A DNA stretch of 64,000 nucleotides from an uncultured Saprospiraceae bacterium (GTDB lineage: Bacteria; Bacteroidota; Bacteroidia; Chitinophagales; Saprospiraceae), in contig CALGLU010000107.1 in the NCBI GenBank assembly GCA_937959275.1, positions 1 to 64,000 on the forward strand, in the 5' to 3' direction. Below the pieces are notes generated by a model. That model worked only from the letters and a program-made list of their open reading frames with translations. It did no database searches and had not been told where the DNA came from. Positions 2,831 through 58,708 of the stretch are shown piece by piece. How positions within the stretch are numbered: position 1 is the first letter of the stretch; each line of letters begins with the position of its first letter. The position numbers and the translations under genes are program-made.

Positions 2831-5800
2831 ATGAAGTCCAGGAAATTTAAACGAGGGGAACAATTCTTTTTCCAGATCATGGATGACAATGACAATGTCA
2901 AAATGGAAAGTGAAGGGTTCAGCCAACAAGATGCACGTAATGATGCATTAAATGAAGCAATGAAGCCTTATGCCCCAAAAGGCGCGTCAGATGACTATAA
3001 ACCATTAGAGTTTTACGAAAAGAATACGAATGCCACATCTGGATTTGATTCGTTTAGCGCAGATGGTGAGCACTACTTCAGTTATAGTGTTGATGGGCAA
3101 GTATACCTGATCTCTGAAGGCTATTCCTCTGATAAAGGTCGGGATAACGGGATCAATAGTGTTGAGAAGAATATGAAGGATGAAGGACGATTCTCTGTCA
3201 ATCAACTTCCAAATGGAAAATGGTATTTGAATTTAAAAGCAGGAAACAACCAAGAAATTGCAACAAGCAGATGGTTTAACTCGGAAGGTGAAGCAAATGG
3301 CGCTTTAGCAAGGTTGACAGGTAAAGGCGGAGGCGCGGGTACTGGTCGAATTGCAAATATAGGTGTCGCCCCTCCTCCTCCTGCGACTGAAGATGCTGGA
3401 GTCGAGAAGAAAAAGAGAAAGAAAAGAACGAGTTCGAAGCCAAAAGCAGAGAAGATACCAGTATCAGATGGTACATATATTTATAATAACGTCAGCTATC
3501 ATATTCATAAGAGTAGTGGAAATGGTCAGCACTATTTCTCATACAAGAATCCTGCAGATGGGAAAACGATCTTGATGAATAGTGATGTCAGAGGCTATGA
3601 CAATCCTGCAGATGCAGAAGCGGCAATCAAACGTATTGAAGAGTTTGGCCCTAAGGAAGCAAACTATGAAGGGAAAGCGACTAAGAACGGTAAGTTCTGG
3701 TTCTACCTGAAAGATGATGACGGAAAAAATGTAGCAAAAAGTATATTCTTTGGATCAGAGGAAGACATGCAAAGAGCAGTTGGCTTATTGATCGGGACAG
3801 GAGATCCAAAAGCTGCAGGCGGAGGCGCTGCGCCAACTAAAGCAGCAGAAGGTCAAGATGAATACTTACCAGTACCATCCTACGCGGCACATAGCGGAAA
3901 TAAGGTTTCTGGAGATGAAGATTTTATCACATTTGATCAAGATGGCAAACACTATTTTGCTTGGATGGTAGATGGCAATGTCTATATGAGAAGCCAGGGC
4001 TATACATCCGAATCCGGTAGAGATAATGGTATAGAATCAGTTAAGAAGAACCGAGATCAGGAAGAGAGATATGCGAATCTAGAAGAAGGGGGCAATGAAT
4101 TTGTAATCCTAAAAGCAGGTAATAGTCAAGAAATTGCAAGATCAGGTCCTATCGGCGGACAAGGCTGGACAGGCTATAGAGCTGCAGGTATTGGCGCTGT
4201 TGGTGCTTTAGGTATACTAGCTAAGTCAAACGCAGATGCCCAGGCTAAAGCTCGAGCAGAGCGAGAAGCAGCCGAAGCGAAAGCTAAAGCTGATGCCGAG
4301 GCTAAAGCACAAGCTGAGCGAGAAGCTGCTGAAGCAAAAGCTGATGCTGAAGCAAAAGCTCAAGCAGAACGTGAAGCAGCAGAAGCGAAGGCTAAAGCTG
4401 ATGCCGAGGCTAAAGCTCAAGCAGAGCGAGAAGCTGCAGAAGCAAAGGCAAAAGCTGATGCTGAAGCAAAAGCTCAAGCAGAGCGTGAAGCTGCAGAAGC
4501 GAAGGCTAAGGCAGATGCCGAGGCTAAAGCTCAAGCAGAGCGTGAAGCTGCAGAAGCAAAGGCAAAAGCTGATGCCGAGGCTAAAGCTAGAGCAGAACAA
4601 GAAGCAGCGGAAGCGAAGGCTAAAGCTGATGCTGAAGCAAAAGCTCAAGCAGAACGAGAAGCTGCAGAAGCGAAGGCTAAAGCTGATGCTGAAGCAAAAG
4701 CTCAAGCAGAACGAGAAGCTGCAGAGGCGAAGGCTAAAGCAGATGCTGAGGCTAAAGCTCAAGCAGAGCGAGAAGCTGCAACAGCAGCGGCAGCGGCGGC
4801 AGCAGCAGCTGCTGCAGCGGCAGCAGCGAAAATTAAAGCAGATGCCGAGGCTACAGCTCAAGCAGAACGAGAAGCAGCAGAAGCAAAGGCAAAAGCAGAT
4901 GCTGAAGCTAAAGCTCAAGCAGAGCGAGAAGCCGCAGAAGCAAAGGCAAAAGCAGATGCCGAGGCTAAAGCACAAGCAGAACGAGAAGCCGCAGAAGCAA
5001 AGGCAAAGGCAGATGCCGAAGCCAAAGCAAAAGCAGAGCGAGAAGCCGCAGAAGCAAAGGCAAAAGCTGATGCCGAGGCTAAAGCTCGTGCAGAGCGAGA
5101 AGCCGCAGAAGCAAAAGCAAAGGCAGATGCCGAAGCCAAAGCAAAAGCAGAGCGAGAAGCTGCAGAAGCGAAGGCAAAAGCAGATGCTGAGATTAAGGCT
5201 CGTGCTGATGCCGAGGCTAAAGCTCGAGCAGATCAAGAAGCTGCCAGCAAAAAAGCTAAGATTGCCGCAGCTGCTGCCGCAGTAGGTGCAGGCGCCGTGG
5301 GTATGGCGGCATCCTCCAAAGGTTCAGGTGAATCATCAAAAACAGAATCTATGGGGACTACGAAAAAGCAAGGAGACGACGATGATTACATGGTGTGTAG
5401 TGTTTATGAAAGTCGGATTAAAGATTCACGTTCTTCAAAATATCCTGAATTCATCACGTTTAAGGCTGATAATGGAGAACATTATTTTGCTTTGATTAAA
5501 GACGGGAAAGTCTTTTTAAGAAGTGAAGGATATACTGAAGCGTCTTATCGAGATAATGGTATAGAGTCAGTCCTTAAAAACAAAGATAATCGCGATCGAT
5601 TCAGTGTTGAGAAGAAAAGAGGTTTAGAATATGTTGTTCTTAAATCATCAGGAGGCCATGAAATCGCAAGATCTTGTCCAATGAAAAGTGGAGCAGCGGC
5701 TTGGCTACCTGGTGCGGCAGTAGCAGCAAGCGCAGTAGCGGCAGCTCCAGTTGTTAAAGCAGTACAGAAGAAAAAGGAACCTAAAAAAGTTGTGGAAACC

Positions 5801-52419: not shown

Positions 52420-53136
52420 CTAAGCTTCTTGTTCAAAAACAATACTTCGTTGTGGATTTATCTTATACATGGTCTTAGGCATAATCTCTCGGTTCGCAGT
52501 TAAACGCGAGTTTTTATTATTTGGGTCTAGAATATAATCGAGTTGATACTCAATCATTTTTTCAAAAGGAATAAGGAAATCTCTAGTCTCGCAGTCTTCT
52601 AAGTCGCCTTCCTTCAGTAAATTTAAGACAGTATAGACTGACTCAATAGTACTCAGACAAAGAGATGCTGGCTGCTGCTTGAGAATAAATTTTGATTTTA
52701 TTTTATTATCAAAACTCACTCTTTTTAGTTTTTGTAAGTTCTTACTAAGTTTAAGCATTTTGCGGGCGCAGGGCCATGTGCCATCGAGAAGAAACAGGTA
52801 TGGATTATTACCCATACATGAATTTATTTCTGGACCTTTTCTTGTTGATAAATTGAAATTATCTTTTCCCGGATACAGTAAAAAAGAAGAACTTTTTTCT
52901 TCATTCAGAATTTCATTTACACGGTTATTATTGGTAAAGTCGATACCAACTATAATTTCTGAATTTTCAAGTTGAAGCTTAGTCATATGCCCCGTTCCGT
53001 TTCTTTCTTTTTTGTACTCCTTCGGGTGCATGAGTATAATAAAACGAGTCTTAGTCTGGACAGGACTGATGTGTTTACAAATACAGATGATTGAAGGCCT
53101 CATGCATTTGTAACATTTGATTCTTGGGTTTTTCAT
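52420..53136 (-). CDS. DTW-domain tRNA aminocarboxypropyltransferase (TapT-like)
   Basis: The 238-residue protein has the DTW hallmarks: a Cys-rich head (CYKCMRPSIICIC), ILMHPKEYKKERNGTGHM, and the DTW-position motif FLLDGTWPCARKM near residue 117. DTW proteins of the TapT/YfiP type add an aminocarboxypropyl group to a tRNA uridine from SAM. Here DTW reads DGTW. It is the last core-like gene before the accessory stretch. Confidence 0.87.
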   Translation of the reverse strand: MKNPRIKCYKCMRPSIICICKHISPVQTKTRFIILMHPKEYKKERNGTGHMTKLQLENSEIIVGIDFTNNNRVNEILNEEKSSSFLLYPGKDNFNLSTRKGPEINSCMGNNPYLFLLDGTWPCARKMLKLSKNLQKLKRVSFDNKIKSKFILKQQPASLCLSTIESVYTVLNLLKEGDLEDCETRDFLIPFEKMIEYQLDYILDPNNKNSRLTANREIMPKTMYKINPQRSIVFEQEA

Positions 53137-53205
53137 TTGTACTTGTACGGTGACTATCTCTTTTTCCTAATTGACATTTGTTGCTAATTGTTATAGCCCA
53201 GCACT

Positions 53206-53619
53206 TTACTTTTTATATTTAACTAAAAATTCCTTAGGGGTTAATGTTGACAATTTGCTGTACTTAAAGTCTTTTATGTTCCTTGTGATGATAATTTCCA
53301 TATTTGAATTCAATGCACTGAAATTTTGAATACCATCTTCAAAGTCTCTAAATTTTGAGCTTATCGAGCTCCTTATTTCTCTCTCACCAACATTTAAAAC
53401 CTTCATGAAACTAAGCAGCTTGTCCACCTTATCAAATGCGTGAGTTGTATTTAATGTCTTAGATATAAGAAAATGAATATTAGCAATAATTAATGATGAT
53501 GTATACAATTTGTATTTATTGTTCAAGGACAATTCAAGAATCCATTTTATGTCTTCAAGAAATGGCTCTCTGCCCAACAATAGATCAAGTAGCACATCTG
53601 AATCAAGAAATATTTTCAT
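53206..53619 (-). CDS. PIN-domain toxin (VapC-like)
   Basis: The 137-residue protein starts IFLDSDVLLDLLLGREP with the PIN Asp, then KFRDFEDGIQNFSAL (second acidic site) and IITRNIKDFKYS near the C-terminus. PIN toxins cleave RNA, often tRNA. The stop of the upstream antitoxin overlaps its start by one base, so the pair is co-translated. Confidence 0.85.
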   Translation of the reverse strand: MKIFLDSDVLLDLLLGREPFLEDIKWILELSLNNKYKLYTSSLIIANIHFLISKTLNTTHAFDKVDKLLSFMKVLNVGEREIRSSISSKFRDFEDGIQNFSALNSNMEIIITRNIKDFKYSKLSTLTPKEFLVKYKK

Positions 53620-53873
53620 TACTTCAAATATTTTTCAACAAGTGCTTCTGTCAAAACATCATCATATGTTTTATTTGCAGGAAGTTTAACTGACCCACTA
53701 AGTTCCTCTATTAACGAATTAAACTTATGCTCTTTCTCTTTACTTTTCTTTTTTGTTAGCGATTTCAAATACTCTTCAATTACATTTGATAGACTTCGTC
53801 CTTGGGACTTTGCATATTCTTTTGCAGCATCTATTACTTCTTTTTCAATTGATAGTGTCAATTTGGTATTCAT
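53619..53873 (-). CDS. DUF6364 antitoxin
   Basis: The 84-residue protein has a ribbon-helix-helix-like start (KLTLSIEKEVIDAAKEYAKSQGRSLSNVIEEYL) and a Lys-rich linker, the DUF6364 pattern. The C-terminal part (SVKLPANKTYDDVLTEALVEKYL) would bind the PIN toxin. It is first in the pair. Confidence 0.85.
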   Translation of the reverse strand: MNTKLTLSIEKEVIDAAKEYAKSQGRSLSNVIEEYLKSLTKKKSKEKEHKFNSLIEELSGSVKLPANKTYDDVLTEALVEKYLK

Positions 53874-53940
53874 ACGTATTTATCATTTAGACAAATATAC
53901 GTACTTATTGTACTGGTTACAACTTTTATTTTGCTTGGCT

Positions 53941-53974
53941 ATAAATTTAGGCAATGACTAACGTGTGAGACCTG
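53941..53974 (+). repeat. Left 34-bp inverted repeat
   Basis: This is the exact reverse complement of 57087-57120. It lies just below the stop of the small gene at 53980. Confidence 0.9.
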
Positions 53975-53979
53975 AAATA

Positions 53980-54330
53980 CTAAAATATATTTTCGTCATT
54001 TGGGTCTGGGTAAAATCTATAATTGTTATTAAAAGGTATTGTTGTTGTGTCACTCCAAATTTGATATAGTTTGCTTAATTTCTTCATTGACTTCATTTCG
54101 TCTTCACAACAAACCTCTACTGTGTCTGTCACCAAGTTCATAGTAAATGATTCGCTAACTCTAACAGGATATTTTTTTACAGTATTAAGTATGAGCATGT
54201 TGATTCTTCCATTTTCTATAGCATCCAAATAGAAAACATGTTCATAATCACTATACAGATCAGTAAGGATTATGATGTCATTCCTGCTAATTTCGTTAGT
54301 GTAGATGTCGTTAGGTAGATTCAGTTCTTT
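53980..54330 (-). CDS. Second half of a candidate -1 frameshift product
   Basis: In-frame translation opens just after the A9 tract at 54328-54336 and reads sensibly (ELNLPNDIYTNEISRNDIII...) to the stop at 53980. No ATG occurs until far inside; the first usual start is TTG at 54228, giving 82 residues and discarding a well-composed head. It looks like a C-terminal extension of the preceding gene reached by a -1 shift at A-AAA-AAG. Family unknown; no membrane segment. Confidence 0.5.
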   Translation of the reverse strand, partial: KELNLPNDIYTNEISRNDIIILTDLYSDYEHVFYLDAIENGRINMLILNTVKKYPVRVSESFTMNLVTDTVEVCCEDEMKSMKKLSKLYQIWSDTTTIPFNNNYRFYPDPNDENIF

Positions 54331-54683
54331 TTTTTTACGTTCTTAATTTCGACAACTTCAAAATTATCTTCAATTACACTTGCAAATCTATGTGCATCAA
54401 ATAAATCTCCAAATGAAGAAGAATATAACACTAAAGTATTTCCTTTTATCTCATAATTTGAAATATCTATATTACCTCTCTCTATTTCTCTCTTTAGCAC
54501 TTCAGCAAGTAGAATTTCCCTCTGAGTAAATTCCTCATTAGTGTTGTTTCCTTCAATCAATGATTGGAACTCATTTTCTATTAATTCTATTTCAGATTTA
54601 ATACCATTAATCCCTATGCCGTGATAGATTGTCGAACCTAAAACAGATAAGCCTAATAGATATATAATTAATGAGGTTTTCAT
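54321..54683 (-). CDS. Small secreted or membrane-anchored protein
   Basis: The 120-residue protein starts with a hydrophobic segment (SLIIYLLGLSVLGSTIYHG) and then an acidic helical stretch. It ends VKKKN at a TGA right after the poly-A slip site. No family known. It follows the next gene upstream by one base, so they are cotranscribed. Confidence 0.6.
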   Translation of the reverse strand: MKTSLIIYLLGLSVLGSTIYHGIGINGIKSEIELIENEFQSLIEGNNTNEEFTQREILLAEVLKREIERGNIDISNYEIKGNTLVLYSSSFGDLFDAHRFASVIEDNFEVVEIKNVKKKN

Positions 54684-54684
54684 A

Positions 54685-55032
54685 TCATTGGTACGAATCT
54701 ACACAATCAAAAATATTCTGCCTGTCAATCTCTGAGAGTCTATCCGTTATCAAAGATAAGCATTCTTCTGATGTTATAAAACCCTTACCATTCAAACAGT
54801 CTCTCCATTTCGAATCTATCATCATTTTCTCATCCAAACAAGAAGAATAATTCACTTTATAAGTATAAAGTTCAGTACGAACTCTTGAAAGCTCATCTTT
54901 GCAGTCATTCAAACAGCCATTAAAAAACACAAAAGTTCCAATTAAAAACGCAAAACTAAATAGATTTCCGCATCCGTTATTTTCGTAATGATCATAAATT
55001 TTCCTGTCTAAGGGTTTCCTATCTGCATTCAT
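54685..55032 (-). CDS. Small Cys-rich membrane protein
   Basis: The 115-residue protein has one membrane segment (LFSFAFLIGTFVFFNGCLND) and a Cys-rich coiled C-terminal part (CKDELSRVRTELYTYKVNYSSC). Family unknown. The pattern of a membrane helix with a coiled tail is seen in many small envelope proteins. It is the first of the three minus-strand genes and is divergent to the transposase. Confidence 0.6.
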   Translation of the reverse strand: MNADRKPLDRKIYDHYENNGCGNLFSFAFLIGTFVFFNGCLNDCKDELSRVRTELYTYKVNYSSCLDEKMMIDSKWRDCLNGKGFITSEECLSLITDRLSEIDRQNIFDCVDSYQ

Positions 55033-55120
55033 AGTTCTTAAATTTAGTAAAAAGTGTTAAAACTAAAGGCAATTGCCTATTTTATTTGCAATTACATGTG
55101 CATATGCCTATATTTGCATT

Positions 55121-56068
55121 ATGAAGCAATTCGATACAATACGCAACTTTGATAGTCTATACGAATTAATCATACATTTTGACAGCGAAGCAAAATGCGA
55201 AGAACACTTAGCAACTTTAAGATGGAACGGACAACCACAATGCCCTTCATGCGAATCTAAAAGAATTGGATTATTACAAGGCAAAAGAAAGCAGTACAAA
55301 TGCTATGGATGCAAAAGAAAGTTCAGTGTTAAAACAGGTTCAATTTTCCAAGATTCAAAGCTTCCATTGTTGAAATGGTTTGTAGCTATCTACTTATTCA
55401 CTTCACACAAAAGAGGCGTTAGCAGTCACCAAATGGCAAAGGACGTAAAGGTAAGTCAAAAGACTGCTTGGTTCATGCTTCATAGAATCAGAGTAATATT
55501 TGAGCAAGAAACACCAAGCTTTGACAAGCCTGTTGAGATTGACGAGACGTATGTTGGTGGTAAGGAAAAGAATAAGCACTCGAATAAAAGAACTGCAAAT
55601 TCTCAAGGTAGATCAACTAAAACAAAGACTCCTGTATTAGGTATAATTGAGCGTCACGGGAAAGTATTTGCTATTCCAGTAAAGAATACAAGCAGTGCAA
55701 CTTTAAAGCCTATAATCGAATCAGCAGTTGAAAAAGGAACTACGGTTTACACGGACGAGTGGGTTTCTTATGGTTCTTTAGATAAGATTTACGAACGCTA
55801 TGTAATTAAGCATTCAGCAGGTGAATATGTGAACGGTCACATTCACACGAACGGAATAGAAAACTTCTGGTCTCACTTCAAAAGAACTATTGTAGGCACT
55901 TACTTTCACATGTCTGACTGGCACTTAGACGCTTATGTAGATGAGTCTGCATTCAGATATAATCAAAGAAATTTAAGCGAAGGTTCACGATTCGACGTAA
56001 CTTTGGCTAACTCAAATAAAACATTAAGTTGGAATGAACTTGTCCAAAAAAGAAAGAATCGCGCTTGA
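55121..56068 (+). CDS. IS1595-family (ISXO2-like) transposase
   Basis: Starting at the ATG at 55121 (an open frame to 55073 adds 16 residues) gives 315 residues. The N-terminal zinc ribbon is CPSCES...CYGCKRKF; the DDE domain has PVEIDETYVGGKEKN, VYTDEWVSYGSLD and GIENFWSHFKR (D, D, E). The last block HMSDWHLDAYVDESAFRYNQR matches ISXO2-like proteins. It looks intact. I could not find convincing terminal inverted repeats adjacent to it, other than the 34-bp outer repeats. Confidence 0.9.
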   Translation: MKQFDTIRNFDSLYELIIHFDSEAKCEEHLATLRWNGQPQCPSCESKRIGLLQGKRKQYKCYGCKRKFSVKTGSIFQDSKLPLLKWFVAIYLFTSHKRGVSSHQMAKDVKVSQKTAWFMLHRIRVIFEQETPSFDKPVEIDETYVGGKEKNKHSNKRTANSQGRSTKTKTPVLGIIERHGKVFAIPVKNTSSATLKPIIESAVEKGTTVYTDEWVSYGSLDKIYERYVIKHSAGEYVNGHIHTNGIENFWSHFKRTIVGTYFHMSDWHLDAYVDESAFRYNQRNLSEGSRFDVTLANSNKTLSWNELVQKRKNRA

Positions 56069-56327
56069 AAAAAAGAGTGGTATTAGGATTCCAGAAAAGG
56101 ATGTCAGATTGGAAGGTGGTATCAACGACCATCTTCGAAAAGCCATAAACCACGAGCACGAAGTAAAGCCTCTCAAGCAGATTAAAAAAGAGCTAGGTAT
56201 AAAGGATGCCGACATAGCAACTATGTTTGGTTATGCGAATGCAAACAGCTTTAGGACTTCAAAGGCTAAGAAGAAAATGCAGACGGGTTTGGAGTTGTTT
56301 TATCATATGGTTACTCATAAAGAGTAA
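56034..56327 (+). CDS. HTH passenger protein overlapping the transposase
   Basis: The 97-residue ORF starts inside the last 35 bases of the transposase. Its C-terminal part (ELGIKDADIATMFGYANANS) looks like a helix-turn-helix of a type common in Bacteroidetes accessory elements. The overlap suggests translational coupling, so it may regulate transposition. No experimental role is known to me. Confidence 0.6.
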   Translation: MNLSKKERIALEKKSGIRIPEKDVRLEGGINDHLRKAINHEHEVKPLKQIKKELGIKDADIATMFGYANANSFRTSKAKKKMQTGLELFYHMVTHKE

Positions 56328-56422
56328 AACCCTACAAACTCACTACATAAAGCACTACAGATAACATATATATGAGTACTAATTGTAATGTTTATCAATT
56401 TACCATACATTTGTAAATGACA

Positions 56423-56460
56423 GAAGCCAAACACAATGTGTTTGGCTTCATAATTTTTTT
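56423..56460 (+). terminator. Terminator after the transposase-HTH pair
   Basis: GAAGCCAAACACA (56423-56435) pairs with TGTGTTTGGCTTC (56437-56449), followed by ATAATTTTTTT to 56460. It is 96 bases after the HTH stop. Confidence 0.85.
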
Positions 56461-56541
56461 AAACTGCCGATGTCTTTACACGGAGCGAGACTTCTGTGTC
56501 TCAATTTATGTTAGGACAAAGGTACATAATTTTATTTTAAC

Positions 56542-56663
56542 ATGACAGGTTCAACTGGTCAGAAATGCCAATTAAGTGGCATTTACAAGTGTAGGACACA
56601 TCCTACAAACACAATCCCTTTAGCAAAAGGGAATATTTTTCCACCATGTAGCCGTAATGGTGG
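56542..56663. other. String of four to five short hairpins
   Basis: Within 122 bases are AAATGCCA/TGGCATTT (56563-56570 with 56577-56584), TGTAGGA/TCCTACA (56590-56596 with 56601-56607), TCCCTTT/AAAGGGA (56615-56621 with 56626-56632) and CCACCAT/ATGGTGG (56641-56647 with 56657-56663). A weaker TGAC...GTCA stem lies at about 56543-56561. Each main stem is 7-8 bp and perfect. They lie between the terminator and the facing ORF. This looks like a structured RNA or DNA-recognition array. Confidence 0.65.
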
Positions 56664-56696
56664 TCATGGTACTACTTGGGTTTTGGTTCAGGAAGC

Positions 56697-57041
56697 TTAA
56701 CCATAATCTACACAAACCAATCTGCCTTTTAATAACCCAAATGAATCTCTTTTTATTTCAGATGGGACTTTGAAAGCACCACTATTGCAGAATTGCTGAC
56801 ATGAGACGAAATCAAATGTTTGCAGTTCTGCACATTTTGGCATAACCAAAACTATACCCATAGGGAGGTAAAATAGAATAGGGCATAATCTCTTATCATT
56901 GCAATATTTGAACCTAAATAATTCGTTGTGATTTGCCATCAAGCCATTAAGAAAGGAAGTGTAAGATTCAGGTGATGGAATTTTTATTGCATAATTCCAA
57001 ATTAAAAAAACTTTCCTGCTTGATCCGTTCTTAATAGTCAC
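56697..57041 (-). CDS. Small protein with a kinase-like phrase, function unknown
   Basis: The 114-residue ORF begins KNGSSRKVFLIWNYAIKIP (Lys in an AIKIP context reminiscent of a kinase strand) and ends DSFGLLKGRLVCVDYG. It reads like a small conserved protein I recall from mobile elements but cannot place; I do not claim a kinase. It is convergent with the transposase unit and lies just inside the right 34-bp repeat. Confidence 0.5.
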   Translation of the reverse strand: MTIKNGSSRKVFLIWNYAIKIPSPESYTSFLNGLMANHNELFRFKYCNDKRLCPILFYLPMGIVLVMPKCAELQTFDFVSCQQFCNSGAFKVPSEIKRDSFGLLKGRLVCVDYG

Positions 57042-57086
57042 AGCGCAAAGAAAAGATAATGATGAAAGTACTTTTTTGTGTTATTA

Positions 57087-57120
57087 CAGGTCTCACACGT
57101 TAGTCATTGCCTAAATTTAT
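57087..57120 (-). repeat. Right 34-bp inverted repeat
   Basis: This is the exact reverse complement of 53941-53974. It lies ten bases before the stop of the SEC-C gene that faces it. Confidence 0.9.
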
Positions 57121-57130
57121 TATCAGCCTA

Positions 57131-58708
57131 TCATTTATTCAGGCAACACTTTTTGTATTTTTTACCACTTCCACATGGGCATTTTTCATTTCGGCCTATT
57201 TTACGTTCAGCTATGATTGGTTTTAAAGGTGAATCAAATGTATCGCTAAAATCCATGTTCGAATAATTATTTTCTTCATTATATCCAGCCCATGTTGAAG
57301 TGATGTTCTTATATCGATCGAATATTGAGAGTATATCATTTCTATTGTCGAAATTGTCATGTAGAGCAATTGCATTCTTAACATCAATCCAAGTTCCACA
57401 TATTCCTTTAGAAACAATTCCTTTTTCAAATAACTGTTTAATTAGTGGTAGTAACTCATCTCCTTTTAAATCGATCACATTACAAATCAGTAAACCAATT
57501 AGATCACTATCGATTACATTGTCATCAGTGCTACTCTTAAGGAAAAACTTTATAATATCACCAAACCAATTTATGATTTCATTAAATCTTTCTGGATGAT
57601 GTAACGCGATTTGCTCTGCCATTTCAGGAATATTAATTCGGGCATATGTGTCAATTCCCGATCTAAAAATAAATTCCTTACACGCCTGTAAATTGGTTGC
57701 AGCTATTTTATATAATGGCTCCCATAGCATTCCAGTAATAAAATCACCCAAGTAAAGCTCAAAGTATTCTTCAGATTGACTCAAGACATCAAATATGGAA
57801 TCTAAGCTTTCAGAGGCTTGAAGTTCTCCTAAGATATAGATTGCATGAATTACAAAATTCATTGTTTCTTCATTCCATCCATTTTTATCCAACAATTTTT
57901 GGAAATGATCAAAACGTTTAATACTATCCTTAAGAATTAATTCAAGGTCTTGTAGAAGAGACTCTCTTGGAAGGGACAGGATAGTTTGTAACTTTTCTTT
58001 ATCAATGTAAAGGCCATTACTATACAGCTCTTTAATTTCTTGATGAACAAATATGGGTTCTTTACTGTCGCCATAAATTTTCTGAGGATTTGTGACCACG
58101 GATATTTTATTTTTTTGTTCTTCTTCATAACGCTTTTGACCTGCTTTCATTCTCGCTGTAAAAATATAATGAGATATCATTTCGGTATCAGGAGAATCAG
58201 GAGCAATTTGTTTCATTAAATCATAACGCCTTTCTGCTTTCTCAATATCTTCAATTGCAGTATAATAACGAATTGTACTCTTCAAGAACGATGTGACTTC
58301 ATTTAAATGAAATGTTTCACGATTCGGATAAAGACTTTTTAGTTCCATTTCATAACCAAGCACGTCAGGTATTTTGTTATACTCTTCTTTTAAGTAATAT
58401 TCATTTGCCAGATTCAGTTTGCCAAACAAATAATTTGGATGTTCGGCAATTATCCATTTATTGACATCATACATTTTTTGAGTCATGTTAAGCTGGCGAT
58501 AAAGCACAGATAAATAATTTTTCAATTGAGGGTTATTAGGATACTTTTCTATGGCAGAAAGTAGTTTTGGTATACTTGACTTTTTTCCTTCTAATGCCAT
58601 TTGATGATATCGTTCAAGTTTACGTGATAGATGAGGGGTAATGGCATTTTGATCGTCCAAAAATTGTGGATCAGTCGTTATCTTATAGCTTAATTTTATG
58701 GATGTCAT
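57131..58708 (-). CDS. TPR-type protein with C-terminal SEC-C motif
   Basis: The 525-residue protein has TPR-like helices over roughly residues 25-190 ([22 protein letters not shown]) and a larger helical middle. It ends in a SEC-C zinc motif, [20 protein letters not shown] is found in SecA and many uncharacterised proteins and binds zinc or a partner protein. No membrane segment or leader. The role is unknown, but such proteins are common in accessory regions. Confidence 0.82.

Follow-up and report, generated by a model that had tools for sequence, protein, structure and literature searches.

What does an exact 34-bp inverted repeat enclose in the genome of an uncultured Saprospiraceae bacterium? 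In the stretch of DNA analysed here (64,000 nt, contig CALGLU010000107.1, positions 1 to 64,000; hereafter the window), positions 53941-53974 are the exact reverse complement of 57087-57120, as a preliminary description had noted. That description left the segment between a transposon with cargo and an invertible or recombinase-moved cassette. We consider it almost certain that 53950-57111 is an IS1595-family DDE transposon with passenger genes, a type termed transporter insertion sequence (tIS). On sequence grounds, this assignment draws on the ends, a target duplication, the family of the transposase, the same build in relatives and a cargo that varies around a conserved core. The puzzling 34-bp repeat would then be settled as a known kind of transposon.

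Ends, target duplication and transposase

An inverted-repeat search returned 39-nt arms that are 97% complementary and contain the 34-bp exact repeat. Comparing the flanks side by side revealed that the latter is a composite of a 25-bp terminal inverted repeat (GGCAATGACTAACGTGTGAGACCTG), exact at both ends, an 8-bp target duplication and one chance A/T pair. The duplicated sequence, TAAATTTA, directly adjoins both ends in the same orientation and equals its own reverse complement, so that 25 bp of inverted repeat look like 33 bp. Because it is palindromic, the duplication passed for more inverted repeat and was overlooked, and the earlier statement that no target duplication shows was wrong. 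This is a trap: a palindromic target duplication hides itself within the inverted repeat. The element proper measures 3,162 bp.

A chance inverted repeat around unrelated genes is refuted as an explanation, given that no other inverted repeat in the 10 kb examined exceeds 29 nt (79%, 25/27 pairs shown) and that the ends are common to relatives of the element. Nor does the repeat occur singly at many sites without cargo in its own genome. In a scan of the 6.79-Mb assembly (144 contigs, up to 3 mismatches) its 29-bp core matched two sites only, the two ends of the element, and the reversed sequence used as control gave 0 matches.

The transposase matched Pfam DDE_Tnp_IS1595 (PF12762; E 6.6e-42, 143.5 bits against a cut-off of 27), Pfam Zn_ribbon_IS1595 (PF12760; E 1.2e-9, 38.4 bits, cut-off 25.4) and NCBIfam transpos_IS1595 (NF033547; E 1.1e-60, 205.2 bits, cut-off 75), confirming that it is of IS1595 type. 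The family was reportedly defined in a 2009 paper by Siguier, Gagnevin and Chandler. Transposase type, terminal inverted repeats (25 bp, exact) and the 8-bp duplication all agree with membership.

According to published descriptions, target duplications of IS1595 elements are 8 bp long and often A+T-rich, with 7-9 bp in the IS1016 subgroup (PMC12561309, PMC5704250), and the transposase works at the ends of the element, with A+T-rich sites as insertion targets (PMC12561309, PMC5704250, PMC3129680). The window's transposase would likewise act on the 25-bp ends, and the element would insert at an A+T-rich site and leave an 8-bp duplication; the target here would have been TAAATTTA, and because this is a palindrome the inverted repeat appears 34 bp long. 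A tIS is an IS whose ends also enclose passenger genes that have nothing to do with transposition (PMC3129680), and the window element has four or five putative passenger open reading frames (ORFs) beside the transposase and an accessory ORF. The class of mobile insertion cassettes (MIC), which have no transposase of their own, was rejected, as an intact transposase lies inside.

Among known systems, tISCpe8 and MTnSag1 (tISSag10) resemble the window element in their IS1595 transposase, 25-bp ends, 8-bp duplications, A+T-rich targets and passenger between the ends (PMC5704250). As described there, they encode only the transposase and a lincosamide-resistance gene, whereas the window element has several passengers of no known function and an accessory ORF, resembling a helix-turn-helix (HTH) protein, coupled to the transposase. 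ISApl4, of the IS1016 subgroup, shares the family, a transposase motif with IENFW and A/T-rich 8-bp duplications, but is described as 712 bp long, with 14-bp ends starting GGGGCTGT and little room beyond its 654-bp transposase gene (PMC12561309).

Relatives of the element and its mobility

The host genome holds further transposase copies at 71, 68 and 67% identity, together with weaker ones. The copy at 71% (locus L004) lies between ends of its own that are flanked by an exact 8-bp duplication, ATTATTAA; locus L019 likewise has one, TTTATTCT. We found 43 transposase loci in public genomes; within the host's family, 16 of 298 genomes, its own included, gave a match at E <= 1e-60. Sixty-six loci with a transposase were taken as distinct, the window included. 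Paired ends were present in 41 of them, flanked by exact 8-bp duplications in 36 of the 41. As a control for the pairs with exact flanks, though not for the other five, 13 loci were resampled 40 times each: 0 of 520 resampled sequences reached at least 15/22 with exact flanks and one reached 14/22. The weakest rows with exact flanks, L047 and L119, scored 16/24.

These ends bear on the cassette reading, in which a recombinase acting on the 34-bp repeats would flip or excise the segment. The long exact inverted repeats speak for it. Against it, the repeat consists of a 25-bp end and a direct duplication of 8 bp, such as a DDE transposase leaves, and in relatives the ends adjoin different direct repeats, again of 8 bp. 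None of the element's ORFs that were searched against Pfam, NCBIfam, PHROGs or PADLOC matched a site-specific recombinase, although one encoded elsewhere in the genome might in principle act on the repeats. We found no support for such a cassette and rate it as very improbable; family, ends, exact duplication and relatives bear out the description as a transposon with cargo.

The closest relative, L017 (uncultured Saprospiraceae, CALLFA010000029.1), is 98% identical to the window element in the transposase and 90% in the accessory ORF and has nearly identical ends. Its cargo is different to the left and right of the core, and its duplication by eye is 7 bp. DNA similarity to the window is confined to 55040-56320 (90%) and the ends. 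To the left of the core L017 carries a single 249-aa ORF, and to the right a structured stretch in which no ORF exceeds 44 aa. L019 carries just a 56-aa ORF on the left and one of 140 aa on the right. Promoter, transposase and accessory ORF thus travel together as a core with differing cargo.

Several results weigh against the transposon assignment. No pair of ends was found in 25 of the 66 loci, some since contig ends lie nearby, and the five pairs in L017, L026, L037, L043 and L050 lack an exact duplication. No empty target site was found with the right flank in 60 genomes; 26 of these matched some part of it, mostly as short pieces, and the longest match outside the host genome was 66% over part, in genome G149. 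The 53950-57111 element has one copy in its genome, which gives no sign of recent movement. This single copy would also fit an immobile remnant, a tIS unable to move and fixed with its cargo, an account that is compatible with the transposon assignment. Against it, the transposase ORF is intact, both ends and the duplication are exact, and a near-identical core stands in another genome (L017). We think it unlikely, though a prospect to be reckoned with, and the element presumably is, or was, active.

Table 1. Features of the window element and tRNA genes of related loci (L-numbers are our locus labels; positions without a label refer to the window).
Feature	Position	Strand	Basis or remark
Left 8-bp target duplication copy TAAATTTA, palindromic	53942-53949	none	flank comparison
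Left terminal inverted repeat, 25 bp, GGCAATGACTAACGTGTGAGACCTG	53950-53974	+	inverted-repeat search, flank comparison; closely similar ends in L017, L019, L004
Passenger gene read as two ORFs	53980-54683	-	no convincing Pfam/NCBIfam family
Passenger ORF, 115 aa	54685-55032	-	no convincing family
Palindrome AGGCAATTGCCT, candidate operator	55067-55078	none	upstream of transposase
IS1595-family transposase, 315 aa, N-terminal zinc ribbon and DDE domain	55121-56068	+	Pfam, NCBIfam
Accessory ORF, 97 aa, overlaps transposase end, HTH-like second half	56034-56327	+	conserved with transposase in close relatives
Strong hairpin then T run, terminator-like, after transposase and accessory ORFs	56423-56449	+	fold analysis
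Structured non-coding stretch, 93 nt, z -3.8	56449-56541	+	fold analysis
Passenger ORF, 52 aa	56542-56700	+	homologues in two other genomes
Passenger ORF, 114 aa	56697-57041	-	phage family phrog_4301 (function unknown), E 5e-22
Right terminal inverted repeat, 25 bp	57087-57111	-	flank comparison
Right target duplication copy TAAATTTA	57112-57119	none	flank comparison
tRNA	L075:1088-1163		inside IS1595-family element
tRNA	L066:1188-1260		inside IS1595-family element
tRNA	L018:1246-1318	-	beside transposase, one end in view
tRNA	L037:3342-3429	-	inside IS1595-family element
tRNA	L044:4205-4278		inside IS1595-family element
tRNA	L060:5586-5669	-	beside transposase, one end in view
tRNA	L116:4798-4884		inside IS1595-family element
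tRNA	L117:185-256	-	inside IS1595-family element
tRNA	L118:3371-3446	-	inside IS1595-family element
Long hairpins next to element-borne tRNA	about L060:5690-5815, L037:3435-3545, L116:4440-4790, L044:3820-4200		

Accessory ORF, promoter palindrome and passenger genes

The HTH passenger of the preliminary description was confirmed as a small ORF after the transposase, its HTH character deriving from predicted helices and inspection by eye. Its product had no family match in Pfam or NCBIfam. An AlphaFold2 model was helical and best in its second half, with a mean predicted local distance difference test score (pLDDT) of 75 and a predicted template modelling score (pTM) of 0.49. Compared with the PDB, the fold gave three matches only, at E 8.0 to 8.5, and no solved structure was matched.

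Upstream of the window's transposase, an intact palindrome begins 54 bases before the start codon. For comparison we used 57 loci, a set that excludes duplicates, transposase matches starting after residue 14 and loci with fewer than 35 bases upstream. A tblastn search with the window's protein (E <= 0.01, a threshold at which distant versions may be missed) found the accessory ORF in 14 of them. Promoter palindromes were longer in these 14 than in the 43 without it (mean score 7.1 vs 4.3; Mann-Whitney p 2.3e-6, a value that is too small since the loci are related). They vary by subgroup, with the AGGCAATTGCCT type, TATATGCAATTGCATATA, GTAAGATATATCTTAC and AAGTATATACTT. Elements with the HTH-like ORF thus tend, by sequence comparison, to carry a palindrome in the transposase promoter, and the 97-aa protein may bind it and repress the transposase as a self-made repressor. 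Two results count against this link: the protein model was rated mediocre and is without a solved-fold match, and a shuffle test at 0.02 was passed by only 4 of the 14 loci with the accessory ORF vs 3 of the 43 without (one of the three being a run of N).

In L037 (5396-5539), L044 (about 5395-5560) and L060 (about 5419-5575) a small basic ORF directly follows the transposase. By eye, these ORFs have an FxxxLxxAI-like stretch that also occurs in the window's accessory ORF.

The passengers of the window element presumably serve the host or the element in some way. Apart from the 114-aa ORF (Table 1), none had a convincing family in Pfam, NCBIfam, PHROGs or PADLOC. The sole PADLOC match among six window ORFs, to AbiEi (E 0.0085, 13.5 bits), was taken as chance. 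The two minus-strand ORFs next to the left end are probably one gene. The first (54321-54683, 120 aa) stops just past an A9 tract (AAA AAA AAG AAC TGA; 54321-54345). In the -1 frame 120 open codons, preceded directly by a stop, run from just before the tract to 53980. The tract could mark either a -1 frameshift gene or an indel. The "envelope genes" of the preliminary description amount to two minus-strand ORFs with a hydrophobic stretch near the N-terminus, as judged by eye. Homologues of the 52-aa ORF were found in 2 of 198 other genomes searched, with no transposase seen by eye in the stretches inspected (L081 whole, L082:800-2400).

The right part of the element had been described as a hairpin array. 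Strong structure at 56328-56700 was upheld (z -5.5 on the plus and -5.6 on the minus strand), but the array resolves into a terminator-like hairpin, a 93-nt structured stretch and the 52-aa ORF. On the plus strand the fold of this ORF was matched in stability by 13 of 500 synonymous recodings and 3 of 500 permutations of its own codons, a mild excess; on the minus strand 111 of 500 recodings were as stable, which is no excess. By this recoding test, hairpins within the ORF are a weak candidate for selected RNA. Rfam gave three matches up to E 5 in window 53000-58500 (best E 2.1), all far below the gathering score, and there was no tRNA in the window element.

Just outside the left end, at 53206-53873, Pfam identified a PIN-domain ORF and a DUF6364/ribbon-helix-helix-like ORF, a pair resembling a toxin-antitoxin system.

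tRNA genes and other cargo of relatives

ARAGORN predicted tRNAs in 6 of the 41 elements with paired ends: Thr-UGU in L037, L044 and L116, Cys in L075, Ile-UAU in L117 and Asp in L118. Rfam added one in L066 (39.9 bits), giving 7 of 41, and supported those of L075 (62.5), L117 (58.1) and L044 (43.6). The L116 tRNA scored 38.5 in one Rfam scan and was unlisted in another, and those of L037 and L118 were called by ARAGORN alone. In L018 (Ala-CGC, 49.1 bits) and L060 (Thr-UGU, 53.6 bits) a tRNA lies beside the transposase with, by eye, only one end in view. Together with a single transposase core that moves with varying cargo, tRNA genes inside the ends of several relatives would make these small transposons a route for spreading such genes.

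A search of L037's class (383 genomes), made after tRNAs had been seen in L037, L044 and L060, yielded four new loci. Three had an ARAGORN tRNA inside the ends, two of them Rfam-supported (L116 and L117); the matched transposase frame of L116 contains one TAG. These small host genomes are dense in tRNAs (38-45 in 0.6-0.7 Mb). By our own estimate, which ignores relatedness, about 0.6 cargo tRNAs would be expected in six elements (L037, L044, L116-L119), vs 5 called by ARAGORN, 3 of them with Rfam support. Genome G610 has 38 tRNA stretches, including an ordinary 74-nt tRNA-Thr(UGU) and the 87-nt element-borne one, which is thus extra.

The tRNAs of L116, L037 and L060 (87, 88 and 84 nt) have long variable arms. 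Compared with a tRNA-Leu, the L060 tRNA reaches 87% over 31 nt and the L037 tRNA 86% over 21 nt. The L044 tRNA matches tRNA-Arg at 71% over 76 columns, its best match being the L066 tRNA (79% over 38). Provisionally, these sequences suggest a Thr(UGU) anticodon on a Leu-like (L116, L037, L060) or Arg-like (L044) tRNA body. A strongly folded stretch precedes the tRNA in L060, L037, L116 and L044 (z -4.8 to -6.4 for stretches that were picked by eye and include the tRNA); for L117, L018, L066 and L075 the z values were -2.6 to -3.8.

Element-borne tRNAs might act as missense tRNAs or decoys, or might simply hitch-hike. The tRNA-bearing elements form a concrete set for testing what such tRNAs do. 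Several literature searches on tRNA genes in such elements returned no paper, although tRNA cargo in IS1595 elements may well be in print beyond what was searched, and neither 'allo-tRNA' nor 'missense suppressor tRNA' appeared among the matches listed from a broader literature search. The window's hairpins could possibly be linked to this RNA cargo. On a wider and decidedly speculative view, which we doubt, this IS1595 branch would be a carrier of small structured RNA genes: the relatives' tRNAs would be extra to the host set (one host checked), 56449-56541 would be cargo of the same kind, and the core would be held under an element-borne repressor while cargo is exchanged.

Other cargo was seen in several relatives. 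In L004 two similar stretches in tandem (960-1360), which look structured by eye, lie upstream of an ORF for a basic peptide of 35 aa, and Rfam gave no match up to E 1 in this locus; in L075 an ORF for a basic peptide of 26 aa has, by eye, a comparable position. Passengers at L076:610-1389, L068:2411-3412 and L072:2405-3346 matched the phage-type domains Bro-N, P63C and KilA-N. Judged by eye, passenger ORFs at L117:1469-2800 resemble a DNA adenine methylase and a restriction endonuclease.

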